Of a DNA stretch of 64,000 bases, positions 1 through 29,873 are shown piece after piece (the stretch's first letter is position 1; each line of letters starts with the position of its first letter). The stretch is taken from contig CM020618.1 in the NCBI GenBank assembly GCA_009829735.1, forward strand, positions 9,701,119 through 9,765,118. Direction: 5' to 3'. The notes under the pieces are model-generated. The model was given only the letters and a program-made list of their open reading frames with translations, ran no database searches and had not been told where the DNA came from. This stretch comes from Pyropia yezoensis (taxonomy: Eukaryota; Rhodophyta; Bangiophyceae; Bangiales; Bangiaceae). The position numbers and the translations under genes are program-made.

Positions 1-140
1 ACAGCGTGGTGTCGCCCAGGGTAGTGGGGAATTGATGTGTCTTGGGGGGAGTTATCGGGGCCGGACATGTAAGGAGAGGTCCCAGTCCATATCCCCTGGG
101 TTCCGGGTGGGGATTTAAGGGGCAAATCCTTACACACCTG
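1..140. other. Unassigned left edge
   Basis: No reading frame, repeat or family similarity is recognisable here. Similarity to the LTR-element family begins near position 140, so this stretch lies beyond the left break of fragment B. Confidence 0.4.
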
Positions 141-198
141 CTTGCAAGGAGCAGTACTACCCCAAGAAGCCCGAGTGGTGGCCTCAAGTCGAGGTCCC
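141..198 (-). mobile_element. Element B, left fragment (Ty3/gypsy)
   Basis: This short piece encodes, on the + strand, the EQYYPKKPEWWPQVEVP stretch of the family's antisense ORF. It continues directly at 9578 on the far side of element A. It is therefore the left remnant of an older family copy (element orientation minus) into which A inserted. The last five bases, GTCCC, recur right after A. B is a fossil fragment, truncated on both sides. Confidence 0.85.
194..198. repeat. Target-site duplication GTCCC, left
   Basis: The five bases GTCCC immediately before the 5' LTR are repeated at 9578-9582 after the 3' LTR. A 5-bp duplication is usual for Ty3/gypsy integrases. The first base of the duplication is also the last base of a small hairpin (182-194) in the target copy B. 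Confidence 0.9.
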
Positions 199-666
199 TG
201 TGGCAGTATTGACCCCCAGGTAGGGGGCAACACGTGCCATGCAAGGGGCGGCAGGCCACTAGCCTGGTCCGTTCCTCCCCCTGCATTTGGGTCCATATTC
301 CCTAAGTTCGGGATAGTTAGCTTAGTAGTAAATCCAACTTGGATTTGAGGGTTTTCTGCATTTATCGTCTTGAATTTTCGTGTGGCCCGGTGGGCAGGTG
401 CTGGGGTGGGAGATTCTGAGTGGCGAGATTCTGAGTGGACCCTGGGGGGATAAGGGGAGGGACAGCGGGGCTTGGCCCTGCGTCCCCGTCCCGACCAAGA
501 AACTGTTGGACCACACACCATCTTCTTGTTTGTCCGTGGGGGGATTGCCCCACAACAGGGATAGAGTGTGTGCGACTTGCACTTCTTCCGGTTCCCCCGA
601 CACGGGAGGCAGCCCTCGCACACCGCCCCAACTTGGGTACTGTGTGTGCGAGTGGTTTTTGCCACA
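199..666 (+). repeat. 5' LTR of element A
   Basis: It begins TGTGGCAG and ends TGCCACA, giving 7-bp terminal inverted repeats TGTGGCA/TGCCACA. It contains a 14-bp direct repeat (GAGATTCTGAGTGG at 410-423 and 425-438) and two of the N-A-S-T-N hairpins (330-346, 570-582). No clear TATA box is visible. Confidence 0.95.
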
Positions 667-668
667 TT

Positions 669-685
669 TGGTGGAGCAGCAGGGG
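669..685 (+). other. Putative primer-binding site (tRNA-Ala-like)
   Basis: Two bases after the LTR lies TGGTGGAGCAGCAGGGG. Its complement is a tRNA 3' end ...CTGCTCC-A-CCA. In that acceptor strand position 70 is U and the discriminator base 73 is A, while positions 71 and 72 are C. This matches the G3-U70 wobble plus A73 signature of tRNA-Ala. The same sequence follows the LTR in copies C and D, with one change in D. Assigning the primer to tRNA-Ala is inference, because no host tRNA is present in the window to compare. Confidence 0.5.
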
Positions 686-761
686 ACAGAGGTAAACTTT
701 ACCTCCGGGTGCACCCGGGTGTAGGGGGCCCTCTGTCTCAGAGGAACGGTGGACTTGGACC

Positions 762-2732
762 GTGTCATACGGATCGTTAGCCAACATGGCTAGCTCGGAC
801 CCCCCGTCGTCCGGGGAGTACACGGGTGACGCACGTACTTCAGTGCCTTTGAATACTGGTGAGACACAGGTGGGTTTACCTGGGGTCGCAGAGGGACTAG
901 AGGTCCCTCAAGCCAGCAGGACTGGAAGTGCGGGCGGGCAACAGGCCACCCCGACTCAGTCGGGAGTTCACTCGGGTGACACTTCTGACGTGGGTGGGCC
1001 GAAGTCTGGCCACCGCGTGGTATACTCAACGGGAACGTCCCAAGGGGTGAGGACTGTCCCCGCGAGTTCCACTCGGGTTGGAGCCAACTTTGGCATGGAG
1101 CCATCGCCAACTAGGCTTTCGGAGGACGGCGGACCTCCGTTGGTCGGCGATGGGCTCGCGCCCATGCCCCCGGTTGAGACCCCTGAGGAACGTGGTTACC
1201 CCTCAGGTGGACTCCCGGAGGCGGACCGAGACTCAACTGGAGTCGTCAATCCACTCCTCGCGGAAACTGTCCGTCGGGAGGCGACCAATGTGTTGCGGCA
1301 GACTTTGCCGGACCTGGTGGTCACGATGACGAATACTATTCTGAATCAGATTGTAGCGAGTTTGCCAGATGGCCTGAATGTCCAGACCGGATTGGGGCTT
1401 GCGAGCCCACAGGCGCAGGGGGAATCCCTCCCCACGCCTATCTCGGGTCGCCCCGAACTGGGGGCGACACCTGTGACTCCCAACGAGGGAGCCACACCAT
1501 ACGCGGTGGGGCGTACGCCCTTCACGGGGGAGTTCCCCTCGGAAACGCCGGCGGCTACACCAAGCTCGCCGTACCAGACTACAGGCACTGAGGGTGGACT
1601 TACCCCAGTGCCACAGCGGCTGTTCCCTCAACGTGAGGTGCCGCCCAAGATCCAGGTAGCCAACCCGGTCTACCAGAGGATCTTTGACTGTGAGACCTAC
1701 GCCCTCCACAACAAGTCGGTGGCGTATGGTCCTGACCAGGCCCGAGCCATGGGCCGTGCCAAGAAGAATGCACTTCACTCTTTTGGGCACAAAGCGGAGT
1801 GGGATGGAACTCCCCCCCTCCGTGTCTTTGAGTTCCTACGTCGTTTCACAAAAGCCTGTGACGACAATGCCATAAGTGAAGGCATGGCTTTTTACATGCT
1901 ACAGGAGTTTACGAAGGGAGACCTGCGGACAGAACTTATGTCCGTCATGCCCAGCTCCTCAAGTGGAGGCGCTGGGGAGGTGACGTCCTATTTGGAGCTC
2001 GTCAACTGGTTGTTGAGGGCCATGGTTGATGAAGCGGCGTTGGCTTCTCAAGTCGAGGAGTTTACGCAAGCCCATCAGGAAGAGGCGGAGGACGAGTTGT
2101 CCTTTGCGGAGCGAGTCCGTAAGCTCAACAATCTTTGTGGGTTTCTTCATCCACAAGCTGTGGTGAAGAGTCGGTTTGTGGAAGGACTCCACTGGTCAGT
2201 CCGGATGGAGACCCGGGAGCATAACACTGCCCGGGCGACCCTGGCCGAGTTGGCTAGGTTCGCCTACCGCAGAGGCGAGGCCTACCGCAAGTTGCGGGAG
2301 GAACAACGCCAGGAGCGTCAGGCCGAGTTGGCCAAGGAACGGGAAGAGGCGCGCCAGGCCAGAGAGTTGCGAGAGGCACGCCGAATCCGCAAGGAGAGGG
2401 TGGTAGCTGCCGTGGGAACTTCCCAAGGTACCTCGTCGTCTTCCCCAGTTGGGAAGACCCCTCCGGGAACTGATCATCGGTGTTGGAACTGCAACTCCGA
2501 TGGTCACTGGGCATATGATTGCCCCAAGTTGAGTAAACGCATCCAACAGCTTGTTAGGAATGCGAGTAAGAAGTCGGCTACGAACGAAGTACGTTCACGC
2601 CGCGAGGGTGGGTCTCGACCAGTGGTGGCGGTCGCCACACCCTCGACGGAGGGGGCGGACACGTCGTCCTCGGACTCGTCGTCGTCCCCTTCGCCCTCAG
2701 ATTCGGACGCCAAGTCGGCGGGAAACGAATGA
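762..2732 (+). CDS. gag: Gag polyprotein, element A
   Basis: 656 residues. The first 250 are a Gly/Pro/Thr-rich disordered region. Residues about 340-470 are the retrotransposon-Gag capsid-like region (VFEFLRRFTKACDDNAISEGMAF and following). Residues about 505-550 form an Arg/Glu-rich coiled coil. A single CCHC zinc knuckle of the C-x2-C-x4-H-x4-C form (CWNCNSDGHWAYDC) lies near residues 574-587, followed by a Ser/Asp-rich acidic tail. The stop codon overlaps the pol start by four bases (ATGA, 2729-2732). The role is particle assembly and RNA binding. It looks whole. The start was chosen as the first ATG of the open frame after the leader; MASSD nine codons later is an alternative. Confidence 0.93.
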   Translation: MSYGSLANMASSDPPSSGEYTGDARTSVPLNTGETQVGLPGVAEGLEVPQASRTGSAGGQQATPTQSGVHSGDTSDVGGPKSGHRVVYSTGTSQGVRTVPASSTRVGANFGMEPSPTRLSEDGGPPLVGDGLAPMPPVETPEERGYPSGGLPEADRDSTGVVNPLLAETVRREATNVLRQTLPDLVVTMTNTILNQIVASLPDGLNVQTGLGLASPQAQGESLPTPISGRPELGATPVTPNEGATPYAVGRTPFTGEFPSETPAATPSSPYQTTGTEGGLTPVPQRLFPQREVPPKIQVANPVYQRIFDCETYALHNKSVAYGPDQARAMGRAKKNALHSFGHKAEWDGTPPLRVFEFLRRFTKACDDNAISEGMAFYMLQEFTKGDLRTELMSVMPSSSSGGAGEVTSYLELVNWLLRAMVDEAALASQVEEFTQAHQEEAEDELSFAERVRKLNNLCGFLHPQAVVKSRFVEGLHWSVRMETREHNTARATLAELARFAYRRGEAYRKLREEQRQERQAELAKEREEARQARELREARRIRKERVVAAVGTSQGTSSSSPVGKTPPGTDHRCWNCNSDGHWAYDCPKLSKRIQQLVRNASKKSATNEVRSRREGGSRPVVAVATPSTEGADTSSSDSSSSPSPSDSDAKSAGNE

Positions 2733-5700
2733 CCGTTGGAGCTGGTCGTCCGAAGCTCACAACGGCAGCCTCGGCCAAGTGGGCCAAGAGGACGAACCAA
2801 CCGTGTCGGATACTGCGGCGACCTAAGGGAGTCCGCCCACCTCGGGTGGGACTTCCCAAGAACGTAAACTCACGTCGGGTCATCGCGGTGCTGACGGGTG
2901 AGAACTTCCAGGTGGCTGGACGGGTGCAACTTGCCCCCGGCCGCGCCTGTTGTGCCCGTATCGTACTTGATACCGGGTCAGGAGCCTCCTTGATACGCAA
3001 GTCGCTATTACCTAAGGGGATGAGGCTCCAACGCTGGAAGTCTAAAGCTGACCATCTGATCGATATCAATGGTGGGGTACTTCCCATCGTTGGTGCCGTG
3101 ACCCTACCAACTCGGTTGGGGACCCATGAGGTCGACGTGACCTATGGTGTAGTTGAGAATATATCGGTACCCCTGCTTCTGGGTACCCCTTATGTCGTAA
3201 CACAAGTGCCTTTGATTTGTGGCCCTGAGTACTGGGTCAAGTTGATGAATGGGGAGACTATCCCCATCCTTGGTAAGGGAAAGTCTGTGGCTCCTGTGAC
3301 AGTTTCACAGTCGAAGCCTGTTTGTTCTGTGAGGGAAGGGTTTACTGCTACTCTGCGTTTAGCCCGTAAAGTCACGTTGCCCCCCAACTCGGTGGCGCAC
3401 GTGGATGTTGTAACTGATTATGCGGGGAACGGGTTGGTGCACCCTAACCCCCGTCTTGCTCGCAAGCACCAAGTGCATGTTGCCCTGGGCACGATGGACT
3501 CCAAAGCCGGAGTCCCGTGGAGGATCCAGGTGATGAACCTGAGCTCGTCGCCCAAGTTCTTCAAGTCGGGGGCCAAGTTCGGCTATATCGACCAACACGA
3601 GGGACCGGTAGTAGCGGTCACCCTCAACGCGGGCGCAAGTAGCGACCCGAAGTCCGGAAAGGAGAAGCATCAAGCCAAGTCGGCCGCCTCTCCTCGGCCC
3701 CAGGTAAACATGGAGGGTGTTCCACCCAGGTTGAGGGTTCAAGTTGAACGCCTCTTGGACCAATATCACAAGTTGTGGGATGGTCAATTGGGACTCATGA
3801 GAGCTACCCAACACCGGATCGAGTTGAAACCCGGTGCGCCCCCTATACGCCAACAACCGTATAGGGGGGGACCCCGTTCAAGGGCCCTCGTTAAGGAGCA
3901 AGTTGCTCGCATGGAGGCCCTCGATGTGATCGAGGCCAGCAACGCCGAGTGGGCGAGTCCGGTGGTGATCGTCCCCAAAGTTGATGGGACCCCCCGGTTC
4001 TGTATCGACTACCGTAAGCTCAACGAGAGCACGGTGAAGGATAGTTATCCCCTACCTCGGATGGATGACTGTCTGGACTCTCTGGGGGAGGCAAACGTGT
4101 TCTCTACCCTGGACTGTAACGCGGGGTACTGGCAAATTCCCATTGCCCCGGAGGACAGGCATAAAACTACCTTTACCTGTCACTGTGGTACCTACCAGTG
4201 CAAGCGCCTACCGTTTGGCCTGTGTAACGCGCCGGCAACTTTCCAGCGCGCTATGGACATGATTCTGGCCGGAGTACGGTGGCAGATCTGTCTCGTGTAC
4301 CTAGACGATATCATTGTGTTCTCCCGAAGTCCGGAGGAACACATTGGCCATCTTGGCCAGGTGTTCAAGCTACTTGCTGACGCCGGAGTGTCACTGAAGG
4401 CGAGTAAGTGCCACCTCTTCACTCAAGAGGTGGAGTACTTGGGACATGTTGTCCGTCCGGGGCGTCTCAGTGTCAACGAGAAAAACTTGAGGGCCATCCG
4501 CAAGGCTCAGTACCCCCGGACCCAGACCCAGATGAGGAGCTTCCTCGGGATGTGTAACGTGTACCGACGTTTCACTAAGGGCTTCGCCAAAGTGGCGAAG
4601 CCGTTGAATGAGTTAGTGAGCTCAACGCTACCGAAGAACCTGCCTCCCCCAAGTCGGGTGGAGCAGGAATCCTTTGAGACTCTTCGTGACCTTCTGCTGA
4701 AGCCCCCTATCCTGGCTATTCCCAGGTTGGGAGGCCACTACATCCTGGATGTGGACGCTAGCTACGACCAACTTGGTTGTGTGTTGCTTCAGCAACAGCC
4801 GGACAAGGAGTACTTGCCGGTGGGATACTTCAGCAAGGGGCTAAACTCGGCCGAGAAGAACTACGGAGTCACCGAGTTGGAAGGACTCGCAGTGGTATGG
4901 GCGGTGACGTCACTTCGTCACTACCTAGAGGGTGAGAAGTTCCTCATCCGCTGCGACCACCGCGCGTTGCAGTTCATCTTCAAGACGGACTGTACGAACA
5001 CTCGTCTCAACCGGTGGAGGGTGCGACTTGCACCCTTCAACTTTGATATTGAGTACCGACCTGGCAGGCAACATGCCCTTGCCGACGGCCTCTCTCGGGT
5101 ACCTACCGAGGGACTGGACACCACCCCAGTCGATGAGGACATCCCCATCGTGGGGGTAGTCACGCGCTCGGGTCAGGCGTTGAATCCCGAGGCGCCAGGG
5201 AACAAGAAGTACTTGCCCCTGTCCCTGGACGAAGTAGTGAAGGCCCAGGCCGAGGATCCCTTCTGCAAGTCGCAGAGGGATACCCTGGATACAGTGGCGG
5301 AGACGCGGTTCTTCCTGGGAGACGATGGCCTCCTCATGAGGAGGGGGGTATTCCAGGGGACCGAACAACTTGTCGTCCCCGCATCCCTCAAGGACAGTAT
5401 CCTTGAGAGGGAGCATAACGCTCCCACGGGTGGACACCTGGGGTCTAGTAAACTGTACCAGACCCTGAGGACCAGGTACTACTGGCCGTCCATGGTGGTG
5501 GACATCTACAGTTGGGTGGCTGCCTGCACAAGTTGTGCACAGAACCGTCTGATGGAACGGCGGCCTACTACGGCTATGCTATTGTTCCCGGCCAAGGAGC
5601 CCTTCGCCGCGTTGGCGATGGACATCCTTGGGCCACTGCCAGTGACCGAGGAGGGCAACCAGTACCTCCTGGTCATCTGTGACCGCTTCACGAAACTTAC

Positions 5701-6712
5701 GCGAGCGATCCCACTGGCAGAGATCACGGCCATGTCGGTCGTGTCAGCCTTCCTAGATCACTGGGTTGCCGCGTATGGCATTCCGGATAGTACACTATCA
5801 GACAATGGACCGCAATTTGCGTCTGTACTGTTTCAAGGAGTGCTGGATATGTTGGGGGTTAAGGCAAACTATGCCACCCCCTACCACCCACAAACTAATG
5901 GGCAGGTGGAGCGCTTCAACAAAACTATTGTTAGGCAGCTGCGCCATTATGTGAGTGAGCACGTGAAGACGTGGGACCAATACATTTCTATTCTGACCAC
6001 TGCCTACAATTCGCAGGTTCACTCATCTACCGGGGAAGTACCCCTCGCTTTTGTGACCCCCCGTCGCGTGCGGTCTATTGCCGTGCGGCGGCCGCTCCCA
6101 ACTAGGGAGGATGGTGGCAGTACGCCCACTCCTACTGAGAGTAAGGCGGAGTTCGCTGCTAGGCTTGAAAACCTCATCCCTAAAGTCAGGGCTGAGATGG
6201 ACAAAGCACAAAAGCGCTACAAGCGTACCTTTGACAAAAAGGTGCGCAACGCCAAGCATGTCCCCGAGCAGGGTGACTGGGTATTGGTCCACTCACACAC
6301 CCCAACTGGGGGTAAGTTGGTGTTCCAGACGAAGGGGCCGTACCAGGTCCTTCGTACTGATGGGCGGCGCTTCACCATCGAAAGTGACGATGGGGTCCGC
6401 ACAGTGAACGGACAGGACGTGGTCAAAGTTGCACCACCGCCTGCAGGCGACCCAGCTTGGGCGCGTGCCTTGAAAACGTGGCGCCTGCCCTCGCTGCCTG
6501 CAGCCAAACAGGGCCCGCAGGAGTACGTGTTCGACAAGTTCATCGACCACGGCTGGGATGAGGATACTGACCGCCTCATGTTGAGGGTGCGTTGGTTTGG
6601 CTACAAAGCCAAGGACGATACGTGGGAGTATGTGGAGGACCTTCCTGCTGAGAAGGTCCGGGCGTACTGTGCCCGGAACGAGATAGACCCTAACAGCCCT
6701 CCCTCAACGTGA
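2729..6712 (+). CDS. pol: Pol polyprotein (PR-RT-RH-INT-chromodomain), element A
   Basis: 1327 residues, open throughout. The aspartic protease active site DTGSGAS lies at residues 81-87. Reverse transcriptase spans about 380-560, with YLDD at 524-527. RNase H spans about 670-790. The integrase zinc motif includes H896 and C933/C936, and the catalytic triad is D965, D1025 and E1061 with 35 residues between the last two. A C-terminal chromodomain spans about 1266-1318 (FIDHGWDEDTDRLMLRVRWFGY and following). Domain order RT-RH-INT and the chromodomain place it in the Ty3/gypsy chromoviruses. The start ATG overlaps the gag stop as ATGA, suggesting coupled termination and reinitiation rather than a slippery-site shift; that mechanism is inference. 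It looks whole. Confidence 0.95.
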   Translation: MTVGAGRPKLTTAASAKWAKRTNQPCRILRRPKGVRPPRVGLPKNVNSRRVIAVLTGENFQVAGRVQLAPGRACCARIVLDTGSGASLIRKSLLPKGMRLQRWKSKADHLIDINGGVLPIVGAVTLPTRLGTHEVDVTYGVVENISVPLLLGTPYVVTQVPLICGPEYWVKLMNGETIPILGKGKSVAPVTVSQSKPVCSVREGFTATLRLARKVTLPPNSVAHVDVVTDYAGNGLVHPNPRLARKHQVHVALGTMDSKAGVPWRIQVMNLSSSPKFFKSGAKFGYIDQHEGPVVAVTLNAGASSDPKSGKEKHQAKSAASPRPQVNMEGVPPRLRVQVERLLDQYHKLWDGQLGLMRATQHRIELKPGAPPIRQQPYRGGPRSRALVKEQVARMEALDVIEASNAEWASPVVIVPKVDGTPRFCIDYRKLNESTVKDSYPLPRMDDCLDSLGEANVFSTLDCNAGYWQIPIAPEDRHKTTFTCHCGTYQCKRLPFGLCNAPATFQRAMDMILAGVRWQICLVYLDDIIVFSRSPEEHIGHLGQVFKLLADAGVSLKASKCHLFTQEVEYLGHVVRPGRLSVNEKNLRAIRKAQYPRTQTQMRSFLGMCNVYRRFTKGFAKVAKPLNELVSSTLPKNLPPPSRVEQESFETLRDLLLKPPILAIPRLGGHYILDVDASYDQLGCVLLQQQPDKEYLPVGYFSKGLNSAEKNYGVTELEGLAVVWAVTSLRHYLEGEKFLIRCDHRALQFIFKTDCTNTRLNRWRVRLAPFNFDIEYRPGRQHALADGLSRVPTEGLDTTPVDEDIPIVGVVTRSGQALNPEAPGNKKYLPLSLDEVVKAQAEDPFCKSQRDTLDTVAETRFFLGDDGLLMRRGVFQGTEQLVVPASLKDSILEREHNAPTGGHLGSSKLYQTLRTRYYWPSMVVDIYSWVAACTSCAQNRLMERRPTTAMLLFPAKEPFAALAMDILGPLPVTEEGNQYLLVICDRFTKLTRAIPLAEITAMSVVSAFLDHWVAAYGIPDSTLSDNGPQFASVLFQGVLDMLGVKANYATPYHPQTNGQVERFNKTIVRQLRHYVSEHVKTWDQYISILTTAYNSQVHSSTGEVPLAFVTPRRVRSIAVRRPLPTREDGGSTPTPTESKAEFAARLENLIPKVRAEMDKAQKRYKRTFDKKVRNAKHVPEQGDWVLVHSHTPTGGKLVFQTKGPYQVLRTDGRRFTIESDDGVRTVNGQDVVKVAPPPAGDPAWARALKTWRLPSLPAAKQGPQEYVFDKFIDHGWDEDTDRLMLRVRWFGYKAKDDTWEYVEDLPAEKVRAYCARNEIDPNSPPST
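3839..3868. other. Long hairpin before the RT domain
   Basis: Stem CCCCCTATACG with CGTATAGGGGG (11 bp) and an 8-base loop, coding for APPIRQQPYRGG. It does not have the N-A-S-T-N loop. The stem is kept in C1, while other copies carry a small stem change. Confidence 0.85.
4411..4433. other. Example N-A-S-T-N hairpin in the RT domain
   Basis: Stem CCACCTCTT with AAGAGGTGG, loop CACTC, within RT coding sequence. In C1 and D the stem is identical and the loop reads TACTC. Confidence 0.95.
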
Positions 6713-6823
6713 GGGAAGGCCGAGCAACAGTGCCAAGAGAGTGCTTCAAGTCGAAGTGGTACGCAGAGTGGCTTTAAACTACAGCCCTAACCCTCACACT
6801 CTCACAACAAAGGCAGCTGCCAA

Positions 6824-8767
6824 CTAGGCACGCATGCTAGACTCTCCCACTCCACGGCCCTCGCCCTCACGTGGAGGCGAGCGGCGAGACCCACGCCGAT
6901 AACGGTCTCCACTCGTTGGAAGGGGCGGCGGCTCCAAGTCGGAACCGTCGCGCCCCTCACGGTCGCGCAAGTGGCGCCGACCGTGGCTACTCTTCTGCCT
7001 GGTCTTGCGCGCAAGTTTGCGACGCAGACGCTGGACAGACTCCGTCTCCGATGGGGTAGAGGACTCCGAGACGGAGTAAGACAACTCGTCTTCCGACACG
7101 GAGGGAGAGCGCCGCGAGTGACGGCGACGACGGCGAGGAGGCGAGTATGCCCGGCTCGCACGACGCTTGCCACGCCCAAGTGGGGTTGGCTGGGGCATAA
7201 TAGCCCCAATGCGAGCCAACTCGGCCGTCATAAACTCCGCCACCGACTCGCAACTCGCGGTCGCCACTGCAGTACGAACGCGCTCCTCAAGTTGAGGAGT
7301 CTCGGAACTTTGGAGGGTTGCGGTCGACGCGGCCAACCAGGAAATGGTGCGCACCAACGTGGTGATCATCATCTCTGAGGTTAGAGGCGTGGGCGGTAAC
7401 ACCAACTTGGGGTATACCGTCAGGAGGGTGGCCCCCAAGTTGGGAGACACCGGTGTGGATGACTCCACGGCCACGCTGATCGGGATGTTCCCGTGAGGCT
7501 GGAAAGGAACAGGAGGAAGCGGAGGGGCACGCCGAGGTGGCGGTACCCGGGTGTAACTGCGACCCCGACTTGGGGCTCCCGCAGTAGGTTGAGTCATATG
7601 GTCATCATATGAGGGCACAGCCATAACTATGGGCTTGTCCGGGGGTGGCGCAGTGTGACGATCCACCCCCGGGGCATACGGGTAGTCCCCGATGCCCAAC
7701 CCCTCTCGTAGGACCACACGGCCGTCGTGAAGTTCACGAGCGACCCACACGAACTGGCGAAGTGCGCCATCGTCCTTGGGCCCCCGAGTGGGGCGGCGCA
7801 ACTTGTGCTCAATGCTCTCCCACTCGATAAACTTGTGGAGGCGGAGCATCTCCTCAAGTAGAGTGAGTTGTCCTGACGAGCACCCCTCAGCAACTAGCTG
7901 AGGGGTGAGCTGTTCCAAACCCTGGATGAGCCGGAGGGGGAGATGCCAGAGCATCCCCCGCCGCTGAACACAGGACACCCAGGTCGACATGACCTCGAGG
8001 AGCCACTGGGTGGCCAACATGGCCCACACCAGATGATCAGGGCCAGCCGTCAACATGACGGAGCCGAAGTGGTCAAGCAACCGTGGCAACAATGCCGGGA
8101 ACCCGTAGGGGACCTCAACTTGAGGCCACCACTCGGGCTTCTTCGGGTAGTATTGCTCCTTACTGGCAGCAGACTGCTGAGGAAACTCAAGTTGAGCCGA
8201 GGTCACCAAGTAGGGACCTCGCCGGAAGTCCTTCTCCATCCGCACATCAAAGTGATGAGTGTGCGGATCGGCCTCGTGAAGGTACGGGGGGCGAGTTGCC
8301 ACCGCGTCCCAAGTGAAGGTCGGCAAGTCGCCGGGACCCGGGATAGTTCCCCCGCGGTCCACCATGGCCTTGGCCCGCTGCACGTCCTCGACCTCCTCGT
8401 CGTCCAGGAAGGCAAACTGGTCCGTCCTGAAGCCGGCAGGGAACCCGACCCTACGGGGATACTTCTCCCGTAGGCGGTCCCATACCCGACCCATCGCTGC
8501 GCCGAGTCGGCCACAGCGAAGAACAGTCAACCCCTCCTCATACAGAGGCCAAGCGGGGTAAAACCACCGCCCCAAGGCCTCACGCGGGACAACTTGTCCC
8601 GCCTCCGGGGGAGATCCTGCCGTCAACCCAAAGCCGGGTGACGCGGGAGTCCCACCCCCCGGAGCGATCGCGGAGCCCCCGCCGGAAGTCCCGGCAGGCG
8701 CTGCACCGTAGGAGGTGTCCTCCATACGCTCATCGAGAGAGTCCGTCTCCACTCCCGGAGTCGCCAT
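6824..8767 (-). CDS. Antisense ORF protein of element A, unknown function
   Basis: Read from 8767 this encodes 647 residues on the strand opposite gag-pol. An upstream in-frame ATG at 8938 would add 57 residues. I prefer 8767 because its context is gccATGGc and the N-terminus from there is conserved between copies. Residues 1-60 are Gly/Ser/Pro-rich. About 60-350 is a conserved Trp/Leu-rich core (RWFYPAWPLYEEG, PEWWPQVEVP, TWVSCVQRRGMLWHL). About 395-430 is Pro/Arg-rich. About 530-647 is an Arg/Ser-rich tail resembling RS domains (PPRRRRRHSRRSPS). No catalytic motif, membrane segment or known domain is visible. Its stop lies 111 bp from the pol stop, tail to tail. The frame is kept in five copies. 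It could be an RNA- or DNA-binding accessory protein; that is inference. Confidence 0.85.
   Translation of the reverse strand: MATPGVETDSLDERMEDTSYGAAPAGTSGGGSAIAPGGGTPASPGFGLTAGSPPEAGQVVPREALGRWFYPAWPLYEEGLTVLRCGRLGAAMGRVWDRLREKYPRRVGFPAGFRTDQFAFLDDEEVEDVQRAKAMVDRGGTIPGPGDLPTFTWDAVATRPPYLHEADPHTHHFDVRMEKDFRRGPYLVTSAQLEFPQQSAASKEQYYPKKPEWWPQVEVPYGFPALLPRLLDHFGSVMLTAGPDHLVWAMLATQWLLEVMSTWVSCVQRRGMLWHLPLRLIQGLEQLTPQLVAEGCSSGQLTLLEEMLRLHKFIEWESIEHKLRRPTRGPKDDGALRQFVWVARELHDGRVVLREGLGIGDYPYAPGVDRHTAPPPDKPIVMAVPSYDDHMTQPTAGAPSRGRSYTRVPPPRRAPPLPPVPFQPHGNIPISVAVESSTPVSPNLGATLLTVYPKLVLPPTPLTSEMMITTLVRTISWLAASTATLQSSETPQLEERVRTAVATASCESVAEFMTAELARIGAIMPQPTPLGRGKRRASRAYSPPRRRRRHSRRSPSVSEDELSYSVSESSTPSETESVQRLRRKLARKTRQKSSHGRRHLRDREGRDGSDLEPPPLPTSGDRYRRGSRRSPPREGEGRGVGESSMRA
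7881..7907. other. Example N-A-S-T-N hairpin, 11-bp stem
   Basis: Stem CACCCCTCAGC with GCTGAGGGGTG, loop AACTA. It lies inside the antisense ORF. C1, C2 and D keep the stem and show the same loop read on the other strand. It is the longest member of the hairpin family in element A. Confidence 0.95.
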
Positions 8768-8769
8768 GG

Positions 8770-8790
8770 CTCTCCCCAAGTTGGGGAGAG
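8770..8790. other. Example N-A-S-T-N hairpin at the antisense-ORF start
   Basis: Stem CTCTCCCC with GGGGAGAG, loop AAGTT, ending three bases upstream of the antisense-ORF ATG (8767). In the antisense mRNA it would sit directly before the start codon. C1 and C2 keep it perfectly. Confidence 0.95.
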
Positions 8791-9096
8791 ACGTCCTGGC
8801 TATCGCGGCACGAGACCCGCCTCGAGTTGAGGGGGACTCGGATCGTGGGTAAACGGGTGGCCTCCCCAGCGTGGGGTGGCCCCGTGTAAGGTGAAGGAGA
8901 AGTGGTGGTGGTGGTGAGGTGTGAACCGGGGAGAGCAAGCTGCCAAGTGGGCAAGCTTGAGGAGAGGGGCGGCCAACGTGACCGCCTCCACATCCGCGTT
9001 ACGTACTCAAGGGGGGACAGCAAGTCGCGTCCCCCCCCAACGCCGAGACGTGCGTTTACGCACCCCCTCACAGGGCCGACCGGGTCGGTCGGAACT

Positions 9097-9109
9097 GAGG
9101 AGAGGGGAG
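9097..9109 (+). other. Polypurine tract of element A
   Basis: GAGGAGAGGGGAG directly abuts the 3' LTR, the expected place for plus-strand priming. The same purine run, reversed, borders the corresponding LTR in copies C1, C2 and D. Confidence 0.8.
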
Positions 9110-9577
9110 TGTGGCAGTATTGACCCCCAGGTAGGGGGCAACACGTGCCATGCAAGGGGCGGCAGGCCACTAGCCTGGTCCGTTCCTCCCCCTGCATTTG
9201 GGTCCATATTCCCTAAGTTCGGGATAGTTAGCTTAGTAGTAAATCCAACTTGGATTTGAGGGTTTTCTGCATTTATCGTCTTGAATTTTCGTGTGGCCCG
9301 GTGGGCAGGTGCTGGGGTGGGAGATTCTGAGTGGCGAGATTCTGAGTGGACCCTGGGGGGATAAGGGGAGGGACAGCGGGGCTTGGCCCTGCGTCCCCGT
9401 CCCGACCAAGAAACTGTTGGACCACACACCATCTTCTTGTTTGTCCGTGGGGGGATTGCCCCACAACAGGGATAGAGTGTGTGCGACTTGCACTTCTTCC
9501 GGTTCCCCCGACACGGGAGGCAGCCCTCGCACACCGCCCCAACTTGGGTACTGTGTGTGCGAGTGGTTTTTGCCACA
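9110..9577 (+). repeat. 3' LTR of element A
   Basis: 468 bp, identical by eye to the 5' LTR at 199-666, with the same TGTGGCA/TGCCACA ends. It is followed directly by the GTCCC target duplication. Confidence 0.95.
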
Positions 9578-10861
9578 GTCCCCTACGGGTTTCCGGCGTT
9601 GCTACCACGGTTGCTCGACCACTTCGGCTCCGCCATGTTGGCGGCTAGCCCGGACCACGTGGTGTTCGCCATGTTGGCAATCCAGTGGCTCCTCGAGGTC
9701 ATGTCGACCTGGTTGTCTTGTGTCCAGCGGCGGGGGATGCTCTGGCATCTCTCCCCCCGGCTTATCCAAGGTTTGGAGCAGCTCACCCCTCAGCTAGTTG
9801 CTGAGGGGTGCTCATCAGGACAGCTCACTCTACTTGAGGAGATGCTGCGCCTCCACAAGCTCATCGAGTGGGAGAGCATCGAGCATAAGTTACGCCGATC
9901 CTCCCGCGGACCCAAAGACGATGGCGCACTTCGCCAGTTCGTCTGGGTCGGCCGTTAACTTCACGACGGCCGCGTGGTACTCAAGGAGGGGCTGGGCATC
10001 GGGGACTACTCGTGTGCCCCGGGGGTGGAACGCCACACTGCGCCTCCCCCGGACAAGGCAATCGTTGCGGCCGTGGCCTCCCAAGATGATTACGTGACTC
10101 AACCCCCTGCGGGGGCCCCGAGTAGGGGTCGCAGTTACTCTCGGGCTCCGCCTACTCGGCGAGCCCCTCCGCTTCCTCCTGTCCCGTTCCAGCCGCACGG
10201 GGACATCCCGATAAGCGTTGCTGTTGAGACATCCACCCCGGTGTCCCCCAACTTGGGGGCCACCCTACTCACGGTCTATCCCAAGTTGGTACTGTCAGCC
10301 ACGCCCTTGACTTCCGAGATGATGATCACCACGTTGGTGCGCACCATTTCTTGGTTGGCCGCGTCGCCTGAAACACTTCAAGTTTCCGAGACTCCTCAAA
10401 TTGAGGAGCGCGTTCGTACTGTTGTGGCGACCGCGAGTTGCGAGTCGGTAGCGGGATTCATGACGATCGAGTTGGCTCGTATTGGGTCGATTGTGCCCCA
10501 GCCGGCCCCACTTGGGCGCGGCAAGCGTCGGCCGAGCCGGGCATGCTCGTCTCCTCGCCGTCGTCGCCGTCACTCGCGGCGAACTCCCTCCGTGTCGGAA
10601 GACGAGTTGTCTTACTCCGTCTCGGTCCTCTACCCCGTCGGAGACGGAGTCGTTCCGGCGTCTGCGTCGCCAACTTGCGCGCAAGACCAAACAGATAGCC
10701 GCGGTCGTCGCCACTTGCGCGACCGTGAGGGGCGCGACGGTTCCGACTTGGAGCCGCCGCCCCCGCCGACGGGTGGGGAACGTTATCGACGTGTGTCTCG
10801 CCGCTCGCCTCCACGTGAGGGCGAGGGCCGTGGTGTTGGGGAATCTACCATGCGTGCCTAG
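9578..10861 (+). pseudogene. Antisense-ORF remnant of element B
   Basis: This encodes roughly the C-terminal two-thirds of the antisense protein, including the Trp/Leu core end and the Arg/Ser-rich tail. It is a broken fossil with about one break besides its truncation. Despite higher divergence it keeps the core motifs such as LLEVMSTWLSCVQRRGMLWHL. Confidence 0.8.
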
Positions 10862-10972
10862 TTGGCAGCTGCCTTTGTTGTGAGAGTGTGTGGGTTAGGG
10901 CTGTAGTTAAAGGCCACTCTGCGTACCACTTCGACTTGAAGCACTCTCTTGGCACTGTCACTTGGCCTTCCC

Positions 10973-11569
10973 TCACGTTGAGGGAGGGCAGTTAGGGTCG
11001 TTATCATTTCGGGCGCAGCATGCCCGGACCTTCTCAGCAGGAAGATCCTCCACATACTCCCACGTTTCATCCTTAGCTTTATAGCCGAACCAACGCACCC
11101 TCAACATGATGCGGTTAGTGTCCTCATCCCACCCGTGGTCGATGAACTTATCGAGCACGTACTCCTGCGGGCCCTGTTTGGCCGCAGGTAGCAAAGGCAG
11201 GCGCCACGCTTTCAGTGCACGCGCCCAGGCCGGGTCGCCTTCAGGAGGTGGTGCAACTTTTACCACGTCCTGTCCGTTTACTATGCGGACCCCATCGTCA
11301 CTTTCGATGGTGAACCGCCGTCCATCTGTACGAAGGACCTGGTATGGACCCTTCGTCGGGAACACCGACTTACCCCCAGTTGGGGTGTGTGAGTGAGCCA
11401 ACACCCAGTCACCCTGCTCGGGGACGTGCTTGGCATTACGCACCTTCTCGTCAAAGGTAGGTTTGTAGCGCTTTTGCGCTTTGTCCATCTCAGCCCTGAC
11501 TTTCGGGATGAGTTTCTCGAGCCTGGCAGCGAACTCCACCTTACTCTCAGTGGGAGTAGGTGTACTGCC
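10973..11569 (-). pseudogene. Pol C-terminal remnant of element B (integrase tail, chromodomain)
   Basis: The open frame corresponds to the last 200 or so residues of pol, ending in the same ...NCPPST-like terminus and chromodomain (KFIDHGWDEDTNRIMLRVRWFGY). It lacks protease, RT, RNase H and the integrase core. It is a truncated fossil. Confidence 0.85.
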
Positions 11570-18106: not shown

Positions 18107-18576
18107 TGTGGCAAAAACCACATGCACACACGGCACCCAAGTTGGGGCGGTGTGCAAGGGCTGCCTCCCGTGTCGGGGAAACCGGAAGAAGTGCAAGTCG
18201 CACACACTCTGTCCCTGTTGTGGGGCAAACCCCCCACGGACAAACAAGAGGATGGTGTGTGGTCCAACAGTTTCTTGGTCGGGACGGGGACGCAGGGCCA
18301 AGCCCCGCTGTCCCTCCCCTTATCCCCCCAAGGGTCCCCTCAGAATCTCGCCACTCAGAATCTCCCACCCCAGCACCTGCCCACCGGGCCACACGAAAAT
18401 TCAAGACGATAAATGCAGAAAACCCTCAAATCCAAGTTGGATTTACTACTAAGCTAACTATCCCAAACTTAGGGAATATGGACCCAAATGCAGGGGGAGG
18501 AACGGATCAGGCTAGTGGCCTGCCGCCCCTTGCATGGCACGTGTTGCCCCCCTACCTGGGGGTCAATACTGCCACA
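18107..18576 (-). repeat. LTR 1 of composite C
   Basis: 470 bp with TGTGGCA...TGCCACA ends. It differs from the middle LTR at about five positions. This is the outer LTR on the transposase C-terminal side. Confidence 0.95.
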
Positions 18577-18914
18577 CTCCCCTCTCCTCAGTTCCGACCG
18601 ACCCGGTCGGCCCTGTGAGGGGGTGCGTAAACGCACGTCTCGGCGTTGGGGGCGCGACTTGCTGTCCCCCATCGAGTACGTAACGCGGATGTGGAGGCGG
18701 TCACGTTGACCGCCCCTCTCCTCAAGCTTGCCCACTCGGCAGCTTGCTCTCCTCAGTTCACACTTCACCATCACCACCACCTCCCCTTCACCTTCCACTG
18801 GGCCGCCCCACGCTGGGGAGGCCACCCGTATACTCACGATCCGAGTCCCCCTCAACTCGAGGCGGGTCTCGTGCCGCGATAGCCAGAGCGTCTCTCCCCA
18901 ACTTGGGGAGAGCC

Positions 18915-20856
18915 ATGGCGACCCCGGGAGTGGAGACGGACTCTCTAGATGAGCGTATGGAGGACACCACCTACGGTGCAGCACCCGCCGGGACTTCCGG
19001 CGGGGGCTCCGCGATCGCTCCGGGGGATGGGACTCCCGCGTCACCCGGCTTTGGGTTGACGGCGGGGTCTCCCCCGGAGGCGGGACAAGTTGTCCCGCGT
19101 GAGGCCTTGGGGCGGTGGTTTTACCCCGCTTGGCCTCTCTATGAGGAGGGGTTGACTGTTCTTCGCTGTGGCCGACTTGGCGCAGCGATGGGTCGGGTAT
19201 GGGACCGCCTACGGGAGAAGTATCCCCGTAGGGTCGGGTTCCCTGCCGGCTTCAGGACGGACCAGTTTGCCTTCCTGGACGATGAGGAGGTTGAGGACGT
19301 TCAGCGTGCCAAGGCCATGGTGGACCGCGGGGGAACTATCCCGGGTCCCGGCGACTTGCCGACCTTCACGTGGGACGCTGTGGCAACTCGCCCACCGTAC
19401 CTCCATGAGGCCGATCCACACACTCATCACTTTGATGTGCGGATGGAGAAAGACTTCCGGCGAGGTCCCTACTTGGTGACCTCGGCTCAACTTGAGTTTC
19501 CTCAACAGTCTGCTGCCAGTAAGGAGCAGTACTATCCGAAGAAGCCCGAGTGGTGGCCTCAAGTTGAGGTCCCCTACGGGTTCCCGGCGTTGCTGCCACG
19601 GTTGCTTGACCACTTCGGCTCCGTCATGTTGACGGCTGGCCCTGATCACCTGGTGTGGGCCATGTTGGCCACCCAGTGGCTCCTCGAGGTCATGTCGACC
19701 TGGGTGTCCTGTGTTCAGCGGCGGGGGATGCTCTGGCATCTCCCCCTCCGGCTCATCCAAGGTTTGGAACAGCTCACCCCTCAGCTAGTTGCTGAGGGGT
19801 GCTCATCAGGACAACTCACTCTACTTGAGGAGATGCTCCGGCTCCACAAGTTTATCGAGTGGGAGAGCATTGAGCACAAGTTGCGCCGCCCCACTCGTGG
19901 GCCCAAGGACGATGGCGCACTTCGCCAGTTCGTGTGGGTCGCTCGTGAACTTCACGACGGCCGTGTGGTCCTACGAGAGGGGTTGGGCATCGGGGACTAC
20001 CCGTATGCCCCGGGGGTGGATCGCCACACTGCGCCACCCCCGGACAAGCCCATAGTTATGGCCGTGCCGTCCTATGATGACCATATGACTCAACCTACTG
20101 CGGGGGCCCCAAGTCGGGGTCGCAGTTACACCCGGGTACCGCCACCTCGGCGTGCCCCTCCGCTTCCTCCTGTTCCTTTCCAGCCTCACGGGAACATCCC
20201 GATCAGCGTGGCCGTGGAGTCATCCACCCCGGTGTCCCCCAACTTGGGGACCACCCTCCTGACGGTATACCCCAAGTTGGTGTTACCGCCCACGCCTCTA
20301 ACCTCAGAGATGATGATCACCATGTTGGTGCGCACCATTTCCTGGTTGGCCGCGCCGACTGCAACCCTCCAAAGTTCCGAGACTCCTCAACTTGAGGAGC
20401 GCGTTCGTACTGCAGTGGCGACCGCGAGTTGCGAGTCGGTGGCGGAGTTTATGACAGCCGAGTTGGCTCGCATTGGGGCTATTATGCCCCAGCCAGCCCC
20501 ACTTGGGCGTGGCAAACGTCGCGCGAGCCGGGCATACTCGCCTCCTCGCCGTCGTCGCCGACACTCGCGGCGCTCTCCCTCCGTGTCGGAAGACGAGTTG
20601 TCTTACTCCGTCTCGGTCCTCTACCCCGTCGGAGACGGAGTCTGTCCAGCGTCTGCGTCGCAAACTTGCGCGCAAGACCAGGCAGAAGAGTAGCCACGGT
20701 CGGCGCCACTTGCGCGACCGTGAAGGGCGCGACGGTTCCGACTTGGAGCCGCCGCCCCTTCCAACGAGTGGAGACCGTTATCGGCGTGGGTCTCGCCGCT
20801 CGCCTCCACGTGAGGGCGAGGGCCGTGGAGTGGGAGAGTCTAGCATGCGTGCCTAG
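18915..20856 (+). pseudogene. Antisense-ORF region of C1
   Basis: Starts at the conserved gccATGG context and matches the element A antisense protein closely over almost its whole length. It is broken about once, towards the C-terminal Arg/Ser-rich part. C2 carries the same variant, so the two units share a recent ancestor here. Confidence 0.88.
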
Positions 20857-20967
20857 TTGGCAGCTGCCTTTGTTGTGAGAGTGTGAGGGTTAGGGCTGTA
20901 GTTAAAAGCCACTCTGCGTACCACTTCGACTTGAAGCACTCTCTTGGCACTGTTGCTCGGCCTTCCC

Positions 20968-23900
20968 TCACGTTGAGGGAGGGCTGTTAGGGTCTATCTC
21001 ATTCCGGGCACAGTACGCCCGGACCTTCTCAGAGGGAAGGTCCTCCACATACTCCCACGTATCATCCTTGGCTTTGTAGCCAAACCAACGCACCCTCAAC
21101 ATGAGGCGGTTAGTATCCTCATCCCATCCGTGGTCGATGAACTTATCGAACACGTACTCCTGCGGGCCCTGTTTGGCCGCAGGCAGTGAGGGGAGGCGCC
21201 ACGCTTCCAAAGCACGCGCCCAAGCTGGGTCGCCTGCAGGCGGTGGTGCAACTTTGACCACGTCCTGTCCGTTCACTGTGCGGACCCCATCGTCACTTTC
21301 GATGGTGAAACGCCGCCCATCAGTACGAAGGACCTGGTACGGCCCCTTCGTCTGGAATACCAGCTTACCCCCAGTTGGGGTGTGCGAGTGTACCAGCACC
21401 CAGTCACCCTGCTCGGGGACATGTTTAGCATTGCGCACCTTTATGTCAAAGGTACGCTTGTAGCGCTTTTGTGCTTTGTCCATCTCAGCCCTGACTTTAG
21501 GGATGAGGTGTTCAAGCCTAGCGGCGAACTCCGCCTTACTCTCAGTAGGAGTAGGCGTACTGCCACCATCCTCCCTAGTTGGGAGCGACCGCCGCACGGC
21601 AATAGACCGCACGCGACGGGGGGTCACAAAAGCGAGGGGTACTTCCCCGGTAGATGAGTGAACCTGCGAATTGTAGGCAGTAGTAAGGATAGAAATGTAT
21701 TGGTCCCACGTCTTCACGTGCTCACTCACATAGTGGCGCAGCTGCCTAACAATAGTTTTGTTGAAGCGCTCCACCTGCCCATTAGTTTGTGGGTGGTAGG
21801 GGGTGGCATAGTTTGCCTTAACCCCCAACATATCCAGCACTCCCTGAAACAGTACAGACGCAAATTGCGGTCCATTGTCCGATAGTGTACTATCTGGGAT
21901 GCCATACGCGGCAACCCAGTGATCTAGGAAGGCTGACACGACCGACATGGCCGTGATCTCTGCCAGTGGGATCGCTCGCGTAAGTTTCGTGAAGCGGTCA
22001 CAGATGACCAGGAGGTACTGGTTGCCCTCCTCGGTCACGGGCAGTGGCCCAAGGATGTCCATCGCCAACGCGGCGAAGGGCTCCTTGGCCGGGAACAATA
22101 GCATAGTCGTAGTAGGCCGCCGTTCCATCAGACGATTCTGTGCACAACTTGTGCAGGCAGCCACCCAACTGTAGATGTCCACCACCATGGACGGCCAGTA
22201 GTACCTGGTCCTCAGGGTCTGGTACAGTTTACTAGACCCCAGGTGTCCACCCGTGGGAGCGTTGTGCTCCCTCTCAAGGATACTGTCCTTGAGGGATGCG
22301 GGGACGACAAGTTGTTCGGTCCCCTGGAATACCCCCCTCCTCATGAGGAGGCCATCGTCTCCCAGAAAGAAACGCGTCTCTACCACTGTGTCCAGTATAT
22401 CCCTCTGCGACTTGCAGAAGGGATCCTCGGCCTGGGCCTTCACCTTCTCGTCCAGGGACAGGGGCAAGTACTTCTTGTTCCCTGGCGCCTCGGGGTTCAA
22501 CGCCTGACCCGAGCGCGTGACTACCCCCACGATGGGGATGTCCTCATCGACTGGGTTAGTGTCCAGCCCCTCGGTAGGTACCCGAGAGAGGCCGTCGGCA
22601 AGGGCATGTTGCCTGCCAGGTCGGTATTCAATGTCAAAGTTGAAGGGTGCCAGTCGCACCCTCCACCGGTTGAGACGAGTGCTCGTACAGTCCGTCTTAA
22701 AGATGAACTGCAACGCGCGGTGGTCACAGCGGATGAGGAACTTCTCACCCTCCAGGTAGTGACGAAGTCACGTCACCGCCCACACCACTGCGAGTCCTTC
22801 CAACTCGGTGACTCCGTAGTTCTTCTCGGCCGAGTTCAGCCCCTTACTAAAGTATCCCACCGGCAAGTACTCCTTGTCCGGCTGCTGCTGAAGCAACACA
22901 CAACCAAGTTGGTCGTAGCTAGCGTCCACATCCAGGATGTAGTGGCCTCCCAACCTGGGAATAGCCAAGATGGGGGGCTTCAGCAGAAGGTCCCGAAGAG
23001 TCTCAAAGGATTCCTGCTCCGCCCGACTTGGGGGAGGCAGGTTCTTCGGTAGCGTTGAGCTCACTAGCTCATTCAACGGCTTCGCCACCTTGGCGAAGCC
23101 CTTGGTGAAACGTCGGTACACGTTACACATCCCGAGGAAGCTCCTCATCTGGGTCTGGGACCGGGGGTACTGAGCCTTACGGATGGCCCTCAAGTTCTTC
23201 TCGTTAACACTGAGACGCCCCGGATGGACAACATGTCCCAAGTACTCCACCTCTTGAGTAAAGAGGTGGCACTTACTCGCCTTCAGTGACACACCGGCGT
23301 CAGCAAGTAGCTTGAACACCTGGCCAAGATGGCCAATGTGTTCCTCCGGACTTCGGGAGAACACAATGATATCGTCTAGGTACACAAGACAGATCTGCCA
23401 CCGTACTCCGGCCAGAATCATGTCCATAGCGCGCTGGAAAGTTGCCGGCGCGTTACACAGACCAAACGGTAGACGCTTGCACTGGTAGGTACCACAGTGA
23501 CAGGTAAAGGTAGTTTTATGCCTGTGCTCCGGGGCAATGGGAATTTGCCAGTACCCCGCGTTACAGTCCAGGGTAGAGAACACGTTTGCCCCCCCCAGAG
23601 AGTCCAGACAGTCATCCATCCTAGGTAGGGGATAACTGTCCTTCACCGTGCTCTCGTTGAGCTTACGGTAGTCGATACAAAACCGGGGGGTCCCATCAAC
23701 TTTGGGGACGATAACCACCGGACTCGCCCACTCGGCGTTGCTGGCCTCGATCACATCGAGGGCCTCCATGCGAGCAACTTGCTCCTTAACGAGGGCCCTT
23801 GAACGAGGTCCTCCCCTATACGGTTGTTGGCGTATAGGGGGTGCACCGGGCTTCAACTCGATCCGGTGTTGGGTGGCTCTCATGAGTCCCAATTGACCAT

Positions 23901-26918: not shown

Positions 26919-27013
26919 GGTCCAAGACCACCGTTCCTCTGAGACAGAGGGCCCCCTACACCCGGGTGCACCCGGAGGTAAAGTTTACCTCTGTCCCCTG
27001 CTGCTCCACCAAA

Positions 27014-27482
27014 TGTGGCAAAAACCACATGCACACACGGCACCCAAGTTGGGGCGGTGTGCAAGGGCTGCCTCCCGTGTCGGGGGAACCGGAAGAAGTG
27101 CAAGTCGCACACACTCTGTCCCTGTTGTGGGGCAATCCCCCCACGGACAAACAAGAGGATGGTGTGTGGTCCAACAGTTTCTTGGTCGGGACGGGGACGC
27201 AGGGCCAAGCCCCGCTGTCCCTCCCCTTATCCCCCCAGGGTCCACTCAGAATCTCGCCACTCAGAATCTCCCACCCCAGCACCTGCCCACCGGGCCACAC
27301 GAAAATTCAAGACGATAAATGCAGAAAACCCTCAAATCCAAGTTGGATTTACTACTCAGCTAACTATCCCAAACTTAGGGAATATGGACCCAAATGCAGG
27401 GGGAGGAACGGATCAGGCTAGTGGCCTGCCGCCCCTTGCATGGCACGTGTTGCCCCCCTACCTGGGGGTCAATACTGCCACA
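27014..27482 (-). repeat. Middle LTR shared by C1 and C2
   Basis: 469 bp with the usual ends. It serves as the 5' LTR of C1 and the 3' LTR of C2 in element orientation. It differs by about one to five positions from the two outer LTRs. Confidence 0.95.
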
Positions 27483-29762: not shown

Positions 29763-29873
29763 TTGGCAGCTGCCTTTGTTGTGAGAGTGTGAGGGTTAGG
29801 GCTGTAGTTAAAAGCCACTCTGCGTACCACTTCGACTTGAAGCACTCTCTTGGCACTGTTGCTCGGCCTTCCC

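Follow-up and report, generated by a model that had tools for sequence, protein, structure and literature searches.

Dispersed hairpins with a shared loop motif in a Ty3/gypsy retrotransposon of Pyropia yezoensis, and the hairpin grammars of related families

Single-stranded RNA (ssRNA) viruses and hepatitis B virus (HBV) carry dispersed packaging signals, described as short stem-loops with varied stems and a shared loop motif, which is RGAG in HBV (PMC6281560; PMC7612645). The means by which long terminal repeat (LTR) retrotransposons select their own RNA are not well defined, even in yeast. In the account given for Ty3, Gag3 binds RNA and packaging needs the untranslated regions and POL, with the cis signals “not precisely defined” (PMC11381356). 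The DNA analysed here (the window) is a stretch of 64,000 nucleotides from the red alga Pyropia yezoensis (assembly GCA_009829735.1, contig CM020618.1, positions 9,701,119 to 9,765,118, forward strand), and its positions 199-9577 are occupied by an LTR retrotransposon, element A, which contains a swarm of small hairpins sharing one loop pattern. Four of the six Ty3/gypsy family groups examined in this genome carry a hairpin swarm, each with its own grammar. No prior description of such swarms in LTR elements was found in the titles and abstract openings of the matches listed.

The NASTN hairpins of element A and its copies

A NASTN hairpin is defined here as a perfect stem of at least 4 bp with a five-base loop N-A-S-T-N, where S is G or C. 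A full scan finds 54 of them in 199-9577, of which 51 lie in 199-9133, where the second LTR is excluded. Sixty dinucleotide shuffles of 199-9133 give a mean of 1.13 (sd 1.18, maximum 4). Synonymous shuffles (300 per ORF), which preserve the protein, are likewise far below the observed numbers, with 12 hairpins against 0.82 in gag (maximum 6), 18 against 1.48 in pol (maximum 5), and 14 against 0.78 in the antisense open reading frame (ORF; maximum 4). Chance, composition, and codon or amino acid preference are thus ruled out as the cause. A reading of the window from its letters alone (the original prediction) had already argued that amino acid or codon preference could not explain the hairpins, and that they use all codon phases. 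Both points hold, since the third codon position pairs with a third, first or second position in 6, 7 and 5 of the 18 pol hairpins.

The excess is concentrated in one class of loop. Among the 129 five-base-loop hairpins in 199-9133, the inner triple is AGT in 30 and ACT in 21, and the next commonest triple occurs 6 times, so that other loop cores are not equally frequent. Five-base-loop hairpins with non-AST cores number 78, about twice the shuffle mean of ~39, and loop lengths 1, 3, 7 and 9 are also raised (58, 89, 89 and 74 against ~40), in part because loops such as AAGTT also count as shorter ones. The original prediction held that only the loop is common to these hairpins. The shared core stands, but the closing base pair is also non-random, being mostly C-G (32/52 for all five-base loops with a stem of at least 5 bp). 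Loop position 1 is seldom T (1/51, compared with 42/276 for AST sites that are not in hairpins, p=0.006). Its mirror-image counterpart, A at loop position 5, occurs in 12/51 versus 44/276.

The 25 hairpins listed by the original prediction are all genuine, each interval being a perfect stem around an N-A-S-T-N loop, but they make up only about half of the total. All hairpins in element A are given here on the forward strand, with stem length in bp and loop in brackets. Those in both the list and the full scan lie at 330-346 (6, AACTT), 570-582 (4, GACTT), 2285-2297 (4, AAGTT), 2413-2425 (4, AACTT), 2438-2458 (8, CAGTT), 3737-3749 (4, AAGTT), 3896-3908 (4, AAGTT), 4411-4433 (9, CACTC), 5018-5036 (7, GACTT), 5262-5276 (5, AAGTC), 5387-5407 (8, CAGTA), 5525-5539 (5, AAGTT), 6095-6109 (5, AACTA), 6299-6313 (5, AACTG), 6744-6756 (4, AAGTC), 6818-6830 (4, AACTA), 7283-7299 (6, AAGTT), 7563-7575 (4, GACTT), 7881-7907 (11, AACTA), 8113-8125 (4, AACTT), 8321-8333 (4, AAGTC), 8584-8602 (7, AACTT), 8770-8790 (8, AAGTT), 8820-8832 (4, GAGTT) and 8941-8953 (4, AAGTG). 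Those found by the full scan alone lie at 252-266 (5, CACTA), 689-705 (6, AACTT), 1230-1244 (5, AACTG), 1261-1273 (4, AACTG), 1296-1310 (5, GACTT), 1526-1538 (4, GAGTT), 1957-1969 (4, AAGTG), 2089-2103 (5, GAGTT), 2321-2333 (4, GAGTT), 2582-2596 (5, AAGTA), 2708-2720 (4, AAGTC), 2773-2785 (4, AAGTG), 3249-3267 (7, GACTA), 3294-3310 (6, CAGTT), 3943-3955 (4, GAGTG), 4804-4816 (4, GAGTA), 5203-5215 (4, AAGTA), 5863-5875 (4, AACTA), 5918-5932 (5, AACTA), 6032-6044 (4, AAGTA), 6965-6977 (4, AAGTG), 7078-7092 (5, AACTC), 7679-7691 (4, TAGTC), 7725-7739 (5, AAGTT), 7755-7769 (5, AAGTG) and 8681-8695 (5, AAGTC), and in the 3′ LTR at 9163-9177, 9241-9257 and 9481-9493, which are copies of 252-266, 330-346 and 570-582, respectively. 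As predicted, these positions spread over LTR, gag, pol, the antisense ORF and untranslated DNA. In 199-1310, all of the first seven hairpins have an ACT core, and AGT cores are commoner downstream.

The copies of element A in the window are similarly rich. Copy B (18107-27482, minus strand) has 60 NASTN hairpins in 18107-27530, the partial copy C (27531-32076, minus strand) has 32, and the older copy D (48955-58330, minus strand; target duplication AATAT) has 43 in 48955-58375. The host stretch 32077-48954 contains 2 in 16,878 bp, and the non-element stretch 58376-64000 contains none in 5,625 bp.

Element A is a Ty3/gypsy LTR retrotransposon, with LTRs, a CCHC gag, the reverse transcriptase (RT)-RNase H-integrase order and a short target duplication. 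Its two 468-bp LTRs (199-666 and 9110-9577, both on the plus strand) are identical, and the 5-bp duplication GTCCC is found on both sides. The gag ORF (762-2732, plus strand) encodes one CCHC zinc knuckle and is the candidate source of a hairpin reader. The pol ORF (2729-6712, plus strand) encodes RT, RNase H and integrase, and has a weak chromodomain match (Chromo, E=0.00096, 19.5 bits) under the 25.1 cut-off; a chromodomain closing pol is the mark of the chromovirus subgroup. The antisense ORF (6824-8938, minus strand) encodes 704 aa. When a 1-kb piece of element A was searched in the genome, the 40 scored matches (of 1,321 first-look candidates) were all 100% identical, and recent amplification is therefore likely. 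Element A interrupts an older, inverted relative, whose flanking parts 138-198 (90%) and 9578-11569 (88%) match A with a 5-bp overlap; a NASTN hairpin of this relative directly adjoins the insertion point. The minus-strand array 18107-32027 has the order LTR-internal-LTR-internal-LTR, with GCCGT at both outer flanks, as if two copies had recombined through an LTR. The host genes in the window encode an Avl9-like transport protein (34517-37642, plus strand) and a methylenetetrahydrofolate reductase (43505-45478, minus strand), and both lie within the host stretch above.

Conservation between copies and the grammars of related families

The hairpins of each copy were scored in every other copy, using A, B, D and two further members of the family sampled elsewhere in the genome, L010 and L011, which have 39 and 44 NASTN hairpins. 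The copies of a family are not independent of one another, and the p values obtained within it therefore overlap. In each of the 20 directed comparisons the rate of change in stems is below that in the rest of the element, 16 times at p<0.05. Scoring A hairpins in B gives 0/548 changes in stems and 0/162 in cores, compared with 3.3% in the rest (p=3.5e-8); in the opposite direction 7/614 stem bases are changed, as some hairpins of B are absent from A. In gag and pol, third codon positions follow the same pattern in B (stems 0/105 versus 135/1829 outside, p=0.0006) and in D (3/105 versus 166/1828, p=0.03), and are non-significant in L010 (p=0.41) and L011 (p=0.12). Conservation beyond the encoded protein, as expected of packaging signals, is thus found for A against B and D. 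Amino acid identity at stem codons is about the same as elsewhere (0.77-0.94 versus 0.86-0.88 of 2), which suggests that synonymous choice carries much of the load.

The A-S-T core, unchanged at all of the 162 bases scored in B, differs from AST sites outside hairpins (33/862 changed, p=0.006), and loop positions 1 and 5 are as free to vary as the rest (4/108, A versus B). Conservation of both stems and core, which extends over coding and non-coding DNA alike, implies selection, and the folded form most likely matters. To that extent the original prediction that the hairpins are recognised as structure is partly supported, and the identity of the reader is a separate matter, taken up below. 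Individual hairpins turn over while their density persists, and a single substitution suffices for 38/54 of the listed gains and losses.

Related elements were sought in twenty 10-kb samples placed on a regular grid over the 107.5-Mb genome (one sample, L009, is mostly N). This covers one genome in part and six Ty3/gypsy family groups, with loci classed by similarity rather than by full annotation; L030 and L033 are incomplete elements. The original prediction had called for a scan of this kind, and it reveals swarms in relatives with other loop grammars, as well as relatives with none. Outside L009 and the two A-family samples, the 17 remaining loci contain 24 NASTN hairpins in 170 kb (~1.4 per 10 kb), and NASTN hairpins as a host-wide property are rejected on this count. 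The hairpin code belongs to the element family, not to the host.

An excess of four-base loops is found in three of the twenty samples, L016 (174), L018 (201) and L023 (108), compared with 32-49 in L012, L015, L017 and L019, which are similar in G+C, and 83-116 in loci of 71-74% G+C. L016 and L018 are 98.6% identical and represent one family, in which the loop is 4 nt, the closing pair is G-C in 100/123 hairpins (stem of at least 5 bp), and the loop centre is Y-R in 67/123. L030 and L023 (73-77% identical over aligned pieces) also have 4-nt loops, closed by C-G in 25/46 and 18/30 cases, respectively. In L033 (locus positions 1-8000) the excess is broad, at loops of 4-12 nt and strongest at even lengths, with stems of up to 13 bp. 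The pol of L033 is 52% identical to that of L030, and the pol of A is 42% identical to those of L016 and of L030.

Against 100 local dinucleotide shuffles (stem of at least 5 bp, all loops of the given length), A has 52 five-base loops versus 11.8 (maximum 20). Four-base loops number 122 versus 14.2 (maximum 24) in L016, 46 versus 8.9 (maximum 16) in L030, and 30 versus 6.3 (maximum 12) in L023; L033 has 42 six-base loops versus 11.7 (maximum 23). In these scans no swarm is found in the L012/L017 family (L012, loop 4: 4 versus 9.0), although it is the closest to A in pol (45-50% identity over most of the length, 30% over the first part in L012), or in the L029 type (L029 and L034-L037; pol 32% identical to A), where L029 has 12 four-base loops versus 6.8 (maximum 13). 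The host stretch 32077-42076 is mildly above expectation, exceeding every shuffle for two loop lengths, 4 (37 versus 23.3, maximum 36) and 7 (44 versus 23.8, maximum 38). The swarm of L016 ends at the LTR end: hairpins with four-base loops number 17-26 per kb inside the element and fall to 0-5 per kb over the 2.2 kb that follow it downstream. The first kb of the L016 stretch, part flank and part LTR, contains 6. In the L016 family, the interval separating the end of pol from that of the antisense ORF contains two 24-bp tandem arrays with repeated hairpins (L018:3267-3362). A search of viral_contigs gave 32 pattern matches to possible relatives, none of them confirmed.

Stems in the L016 family are conserved relative to control stems (6/1148 versus 53/3906, p=0.019; 6/486 versus 48/1236, p=0.003), unlike its loops, and a third, short comparison with an L023 fragment shows no stem difference (2/178 versus 3/462). 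Between L030 and L023, at 24% divergence, 32/82 hairpins are intact versus 64/551 control stems (p=8e-9), and in the reverse direction 26/61 versus 60/546.

Candidate readers and rival explanations

The swarm could be explained by NASTN hairpins acting as dispersed packaging or assembly sites, recognised by the family's own Gag through loop length, core and closing pair; on sequence evidence this is the tentatively preferred reading, held at somewhat less than an even chance. Single-stranded nucleic acid of the element (genomic RNA, perhaps also minus-strand cDNA in the particle) would fold at the hairpin sites, and many weak Gag contacts in series would select and compact the element's own RNA. 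Each family would have altered its grammar and thereby held its RNA apart from the RNA of related families sharing the cell. A reader of this kind would be expected to be specific to its family, to have access to all of the nucleic acid and to change faster than pol. Gag coats the genome in LTR elements. It is the chosen candidate because of this coating role, because it changes faster than pol, and because it is homologous among the swarm families but undetected in two swarm-free ones.

The Gags of A and L016 share 25% identity over 220 aa, and that of A also matches those of L030, L023 and L033 (26-32% over 104-181 aa, E 2e-18 to 5e-6). Searches of the L012 and L017 loci with the Gags of A and L016 gave no match at E<=1e-3, a negative that rests on L017 since the L012 locus begins near the gag end. 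In L029, the Gag of A matched only a neighbouring A copy and nothing in the L029 element's own part. Gag homology thus appears to track the swarm in the families compared, as a correlation only, which raises the case for Gag and slightly lowers those for a host factor and for a copying process that writes hairpins. The CCHC knuckle itself does not track the swarm: it is found in A, L016, L033 and, across a stop codon, L030, but also in the swarm-free L017 and L029, and it was not found in L012 or in L023.

The original prediction had offered the antisense product as another possible reader. This protein is 23-25% identical to those of L016 and of the swarm-free L012/L017 (E 1e-8 to 4e-7), whose ORFs lie in the respective loci (L016:4351-7080, minus strand; L012:4804-6948, minus strand; L017:1168-3441, plus strand), and its presence without a swarm rules it out as the sole partner of the hairpins. 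A rapidly diverging antisense protein between pol and the 3′ LTR is common to several families, and that of A has no Pfam match. A database search with it returned one match, of 576 aa, 97% identical over 82% (7,995 candidates scored).

Several observations weigh against Gag-read packaging sites. The core loop motifs are closed under reverse complement, with the AGT and ACT counts of A given above and TG 34/CA 28 in L018; closing pairs are likewise much the same on both strands, and the folding excess of A and of L016 is equal on both, which together are unlike what a reader of sense RNA alone would predict. In standing stems that have a single interior mismatch, G-U is not favoured (14, versus 26 A-C; A, L016, L030 and L023 pooled). 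Among L016 stems of at least 7 bp, the maximal loop is 0, 2 or 4 in 16, 23 and 14 cases, so that many of the longest stems run to the centre and part of the L016 signal is palindromic. Although the L012/L017 family encodes pol, a CCHC knuckle and the antisense ORF, it is swarm-free; a swarm is therefore not needed by all members of the clade. The swarm-free L029 has a folding excess of its own (8.7% on the sense strand). Four of the 20 directed comparisons are non-significant (L010 as the target of A, B and D, and D as the target of L010), and the enrichment of double Watson-Crick changes between L030 and L023 does not reach significance (11 versus 9 not; control 56 versus 95; p=0.15).

The main rival is genome-scale ordered RNA structure (GORS), in which dense pairing shields element RNA from host silencing or decay and the loop is secondary. 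Its energetic hallmark, folding in excess of shuffles, is found in A (17%), L016 (14%) and L030 (12%), as well as at 8% in L023, compared with 1% in L012/L017 and 2% in the host. The turnover of single hairpins at a steady density, the plus-strand folding bias of L030 (z difference -0.49 +/- 0.17) and the excess in L029 also suit it. L029 (1-6180) folds better as sense than as antisense (8.7% versus 3.8%; z difference -0.59 +/- 0.19), unlike A and L016. Ordered structure does not predict the equal folding of both strands in A and L016, nor a sharp loop length, closing pair or conserved A-S-T core, nor differing grammars in related families. Independence of loop sequence, which GORS implies, is contradicted by the AST core in 51/129 five-base-loop hairpins and by its lack of change between A and B. 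GORS is accordingly considered unlikely, though not negligible.

A function on both strands or at the DNA level is less likely still. Here the hairpins would work not in RNA packaging but in minus-strand cDNA (or extruded DNA), where nucleocapsid or a chaperone, for example, might use them during reverse transcription. The reverse-complement closure of the loops, the near-equal folding of both strands, the lack of a G-U excess over A-C in standing stems and the palindromic centres of many long L016 stems would all fit. The directional loop position 1 of A and the better folding of L030 as sense RNA would not, and recent single changes do not disfavour G-U but lean the opposite way (GT 18, AC 11; six non-independent comparisons). 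An early count of 2 G-U to 13 A-C in L018, and again in L016, taken as a minus-strand signal, was dropped: the near-identity of the two loci makes their counts one observation, wider criteria applied to a larger amount of sequence give 15 versus 20 or 10 versus 14, and the strictest set gives 8 versus 15. Strand-biased mutation behind the mismatch types is also rejected, as the spectrum is roughly symmetric (private C>T 51, G>A 39). In A, loop-free palindromes are not in excess (37 versus ~40), and its five-base loop is therefore easier to reconcile with folded single strands than with palindromes recognised in duplex DNA; L016 is less clear. With loop position 1 of A directional yet pairing and folding nearly symmetric, hairpins that function both as RNA and as single-stranded DNA inside the particle would fit best.

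A host RNA- or DNA-binding factor, also suggested by the original prediction, would explain why the swarm sits in elements recently amplified in one host. It is made improbable by the different loop grammars within the same nucleus, by the two family groups (L012/L017 and L029-type) with none, and by the scarcity of NASTN hairpins in the 17 other sampled loci.

Hairpins might also accumulate without function if the element's RT switched templates and copied one arm from the other. Such a writer would leave exact Watson-Crick arms, symmetry between the strands and a loop length specific to each family, possibly reflecting its RT. It is nonetheless disfavoured and very improbable, as 0 double changes were found in 1,817 scored stem pairs from six close-copy comparisons, which argues against copying errors as the source; most listed gains and losses need one substitution, the core is conserved relative to AST elsewhere, and the amino acids encoded by stem codons are conserved to about the same degree as elsewhere. 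Nor is hairpin density in non-coding DNA clearly above that in coding DNA. Per kb, it is 2.8 in the LTR, 14.6 in the spacer, 9.8 in the 305-bp stretch before the 3′ LTR, 14.2 in integrase and 9.2 in the RT core of L016, and 6.4 in the LTR, 6.1 in gag, 6.3 in integrase and 2.8 in the RT core of A.

Finally, LTR elements of plants reportedly integrate into palindromes, and A combines 5-nt loops with 5-bp duplications, but a model in which the loop is the target duplication and the stems a symmetric integrase footprint is hardly credible and was unsupported in the five insertions checked, since none of their duplications (GTCCC, GCCGT, AATAT, GCTGC, AACGT) is NASTN, flanks read by eye have no hairpin with the duplication at its centre, and in L016 elements 4-nt loops go together with a 5-bp duplication.

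The reading in which each Gag recognises its own hairpins can be extended. Related LTR retrotransposons would then each write a private hairpin code, legible on RNA and minus-strand DNA, by which each Gag packs or guides the copying of its own nucleic acid and ignores competitors, the alphabet diverging as families split. This broader proposal is possible but doubtful.

Comparison with described systems

The conserved swarm, the grammar of each family and the natural hairpin-free relatives make the question of RNA choice testable through the binding of Gag to short hairpins. If the proposal is true, dispersed packaging signals extend from RNA viruses to retrotransposons, and these families show how such codes split between competing elements.

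An ORF described previously has the same position and orientation as the 704-aa antisense ORF of A; the likeness noted is one of placement, and here the ORF is present with and without a swarm. Like the Ty3 and Ty1 RNA genomes, element A would be an LTR retrotransposon RNA with dispersed structured regions, but the description of those genomes includes no shared-loop hairpin swarm (PMC11381356). As in GORS, pervasive genome-wide pairing is present in some lineages and absent in others; unlike GORS, whose description names no shared loop, each family here has a set loop length, loop core and closing pair (PMC9784701). In our analysis the closest published model is that of dispersed packaging signals (PMC6281560; PMC7612645), with GORS as its main rival (PMC9784701). 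Element A resembles the ssRNA-virus and HBV signals in its multiple short, dispersed stem-loops with varied stems and one loop motif. It differs from them in being an algal LTR retrotransposon with 54 perfect hairpins, a motif closed under reverse complement and a putative protein partner, and in having related families with different grammars side by side.

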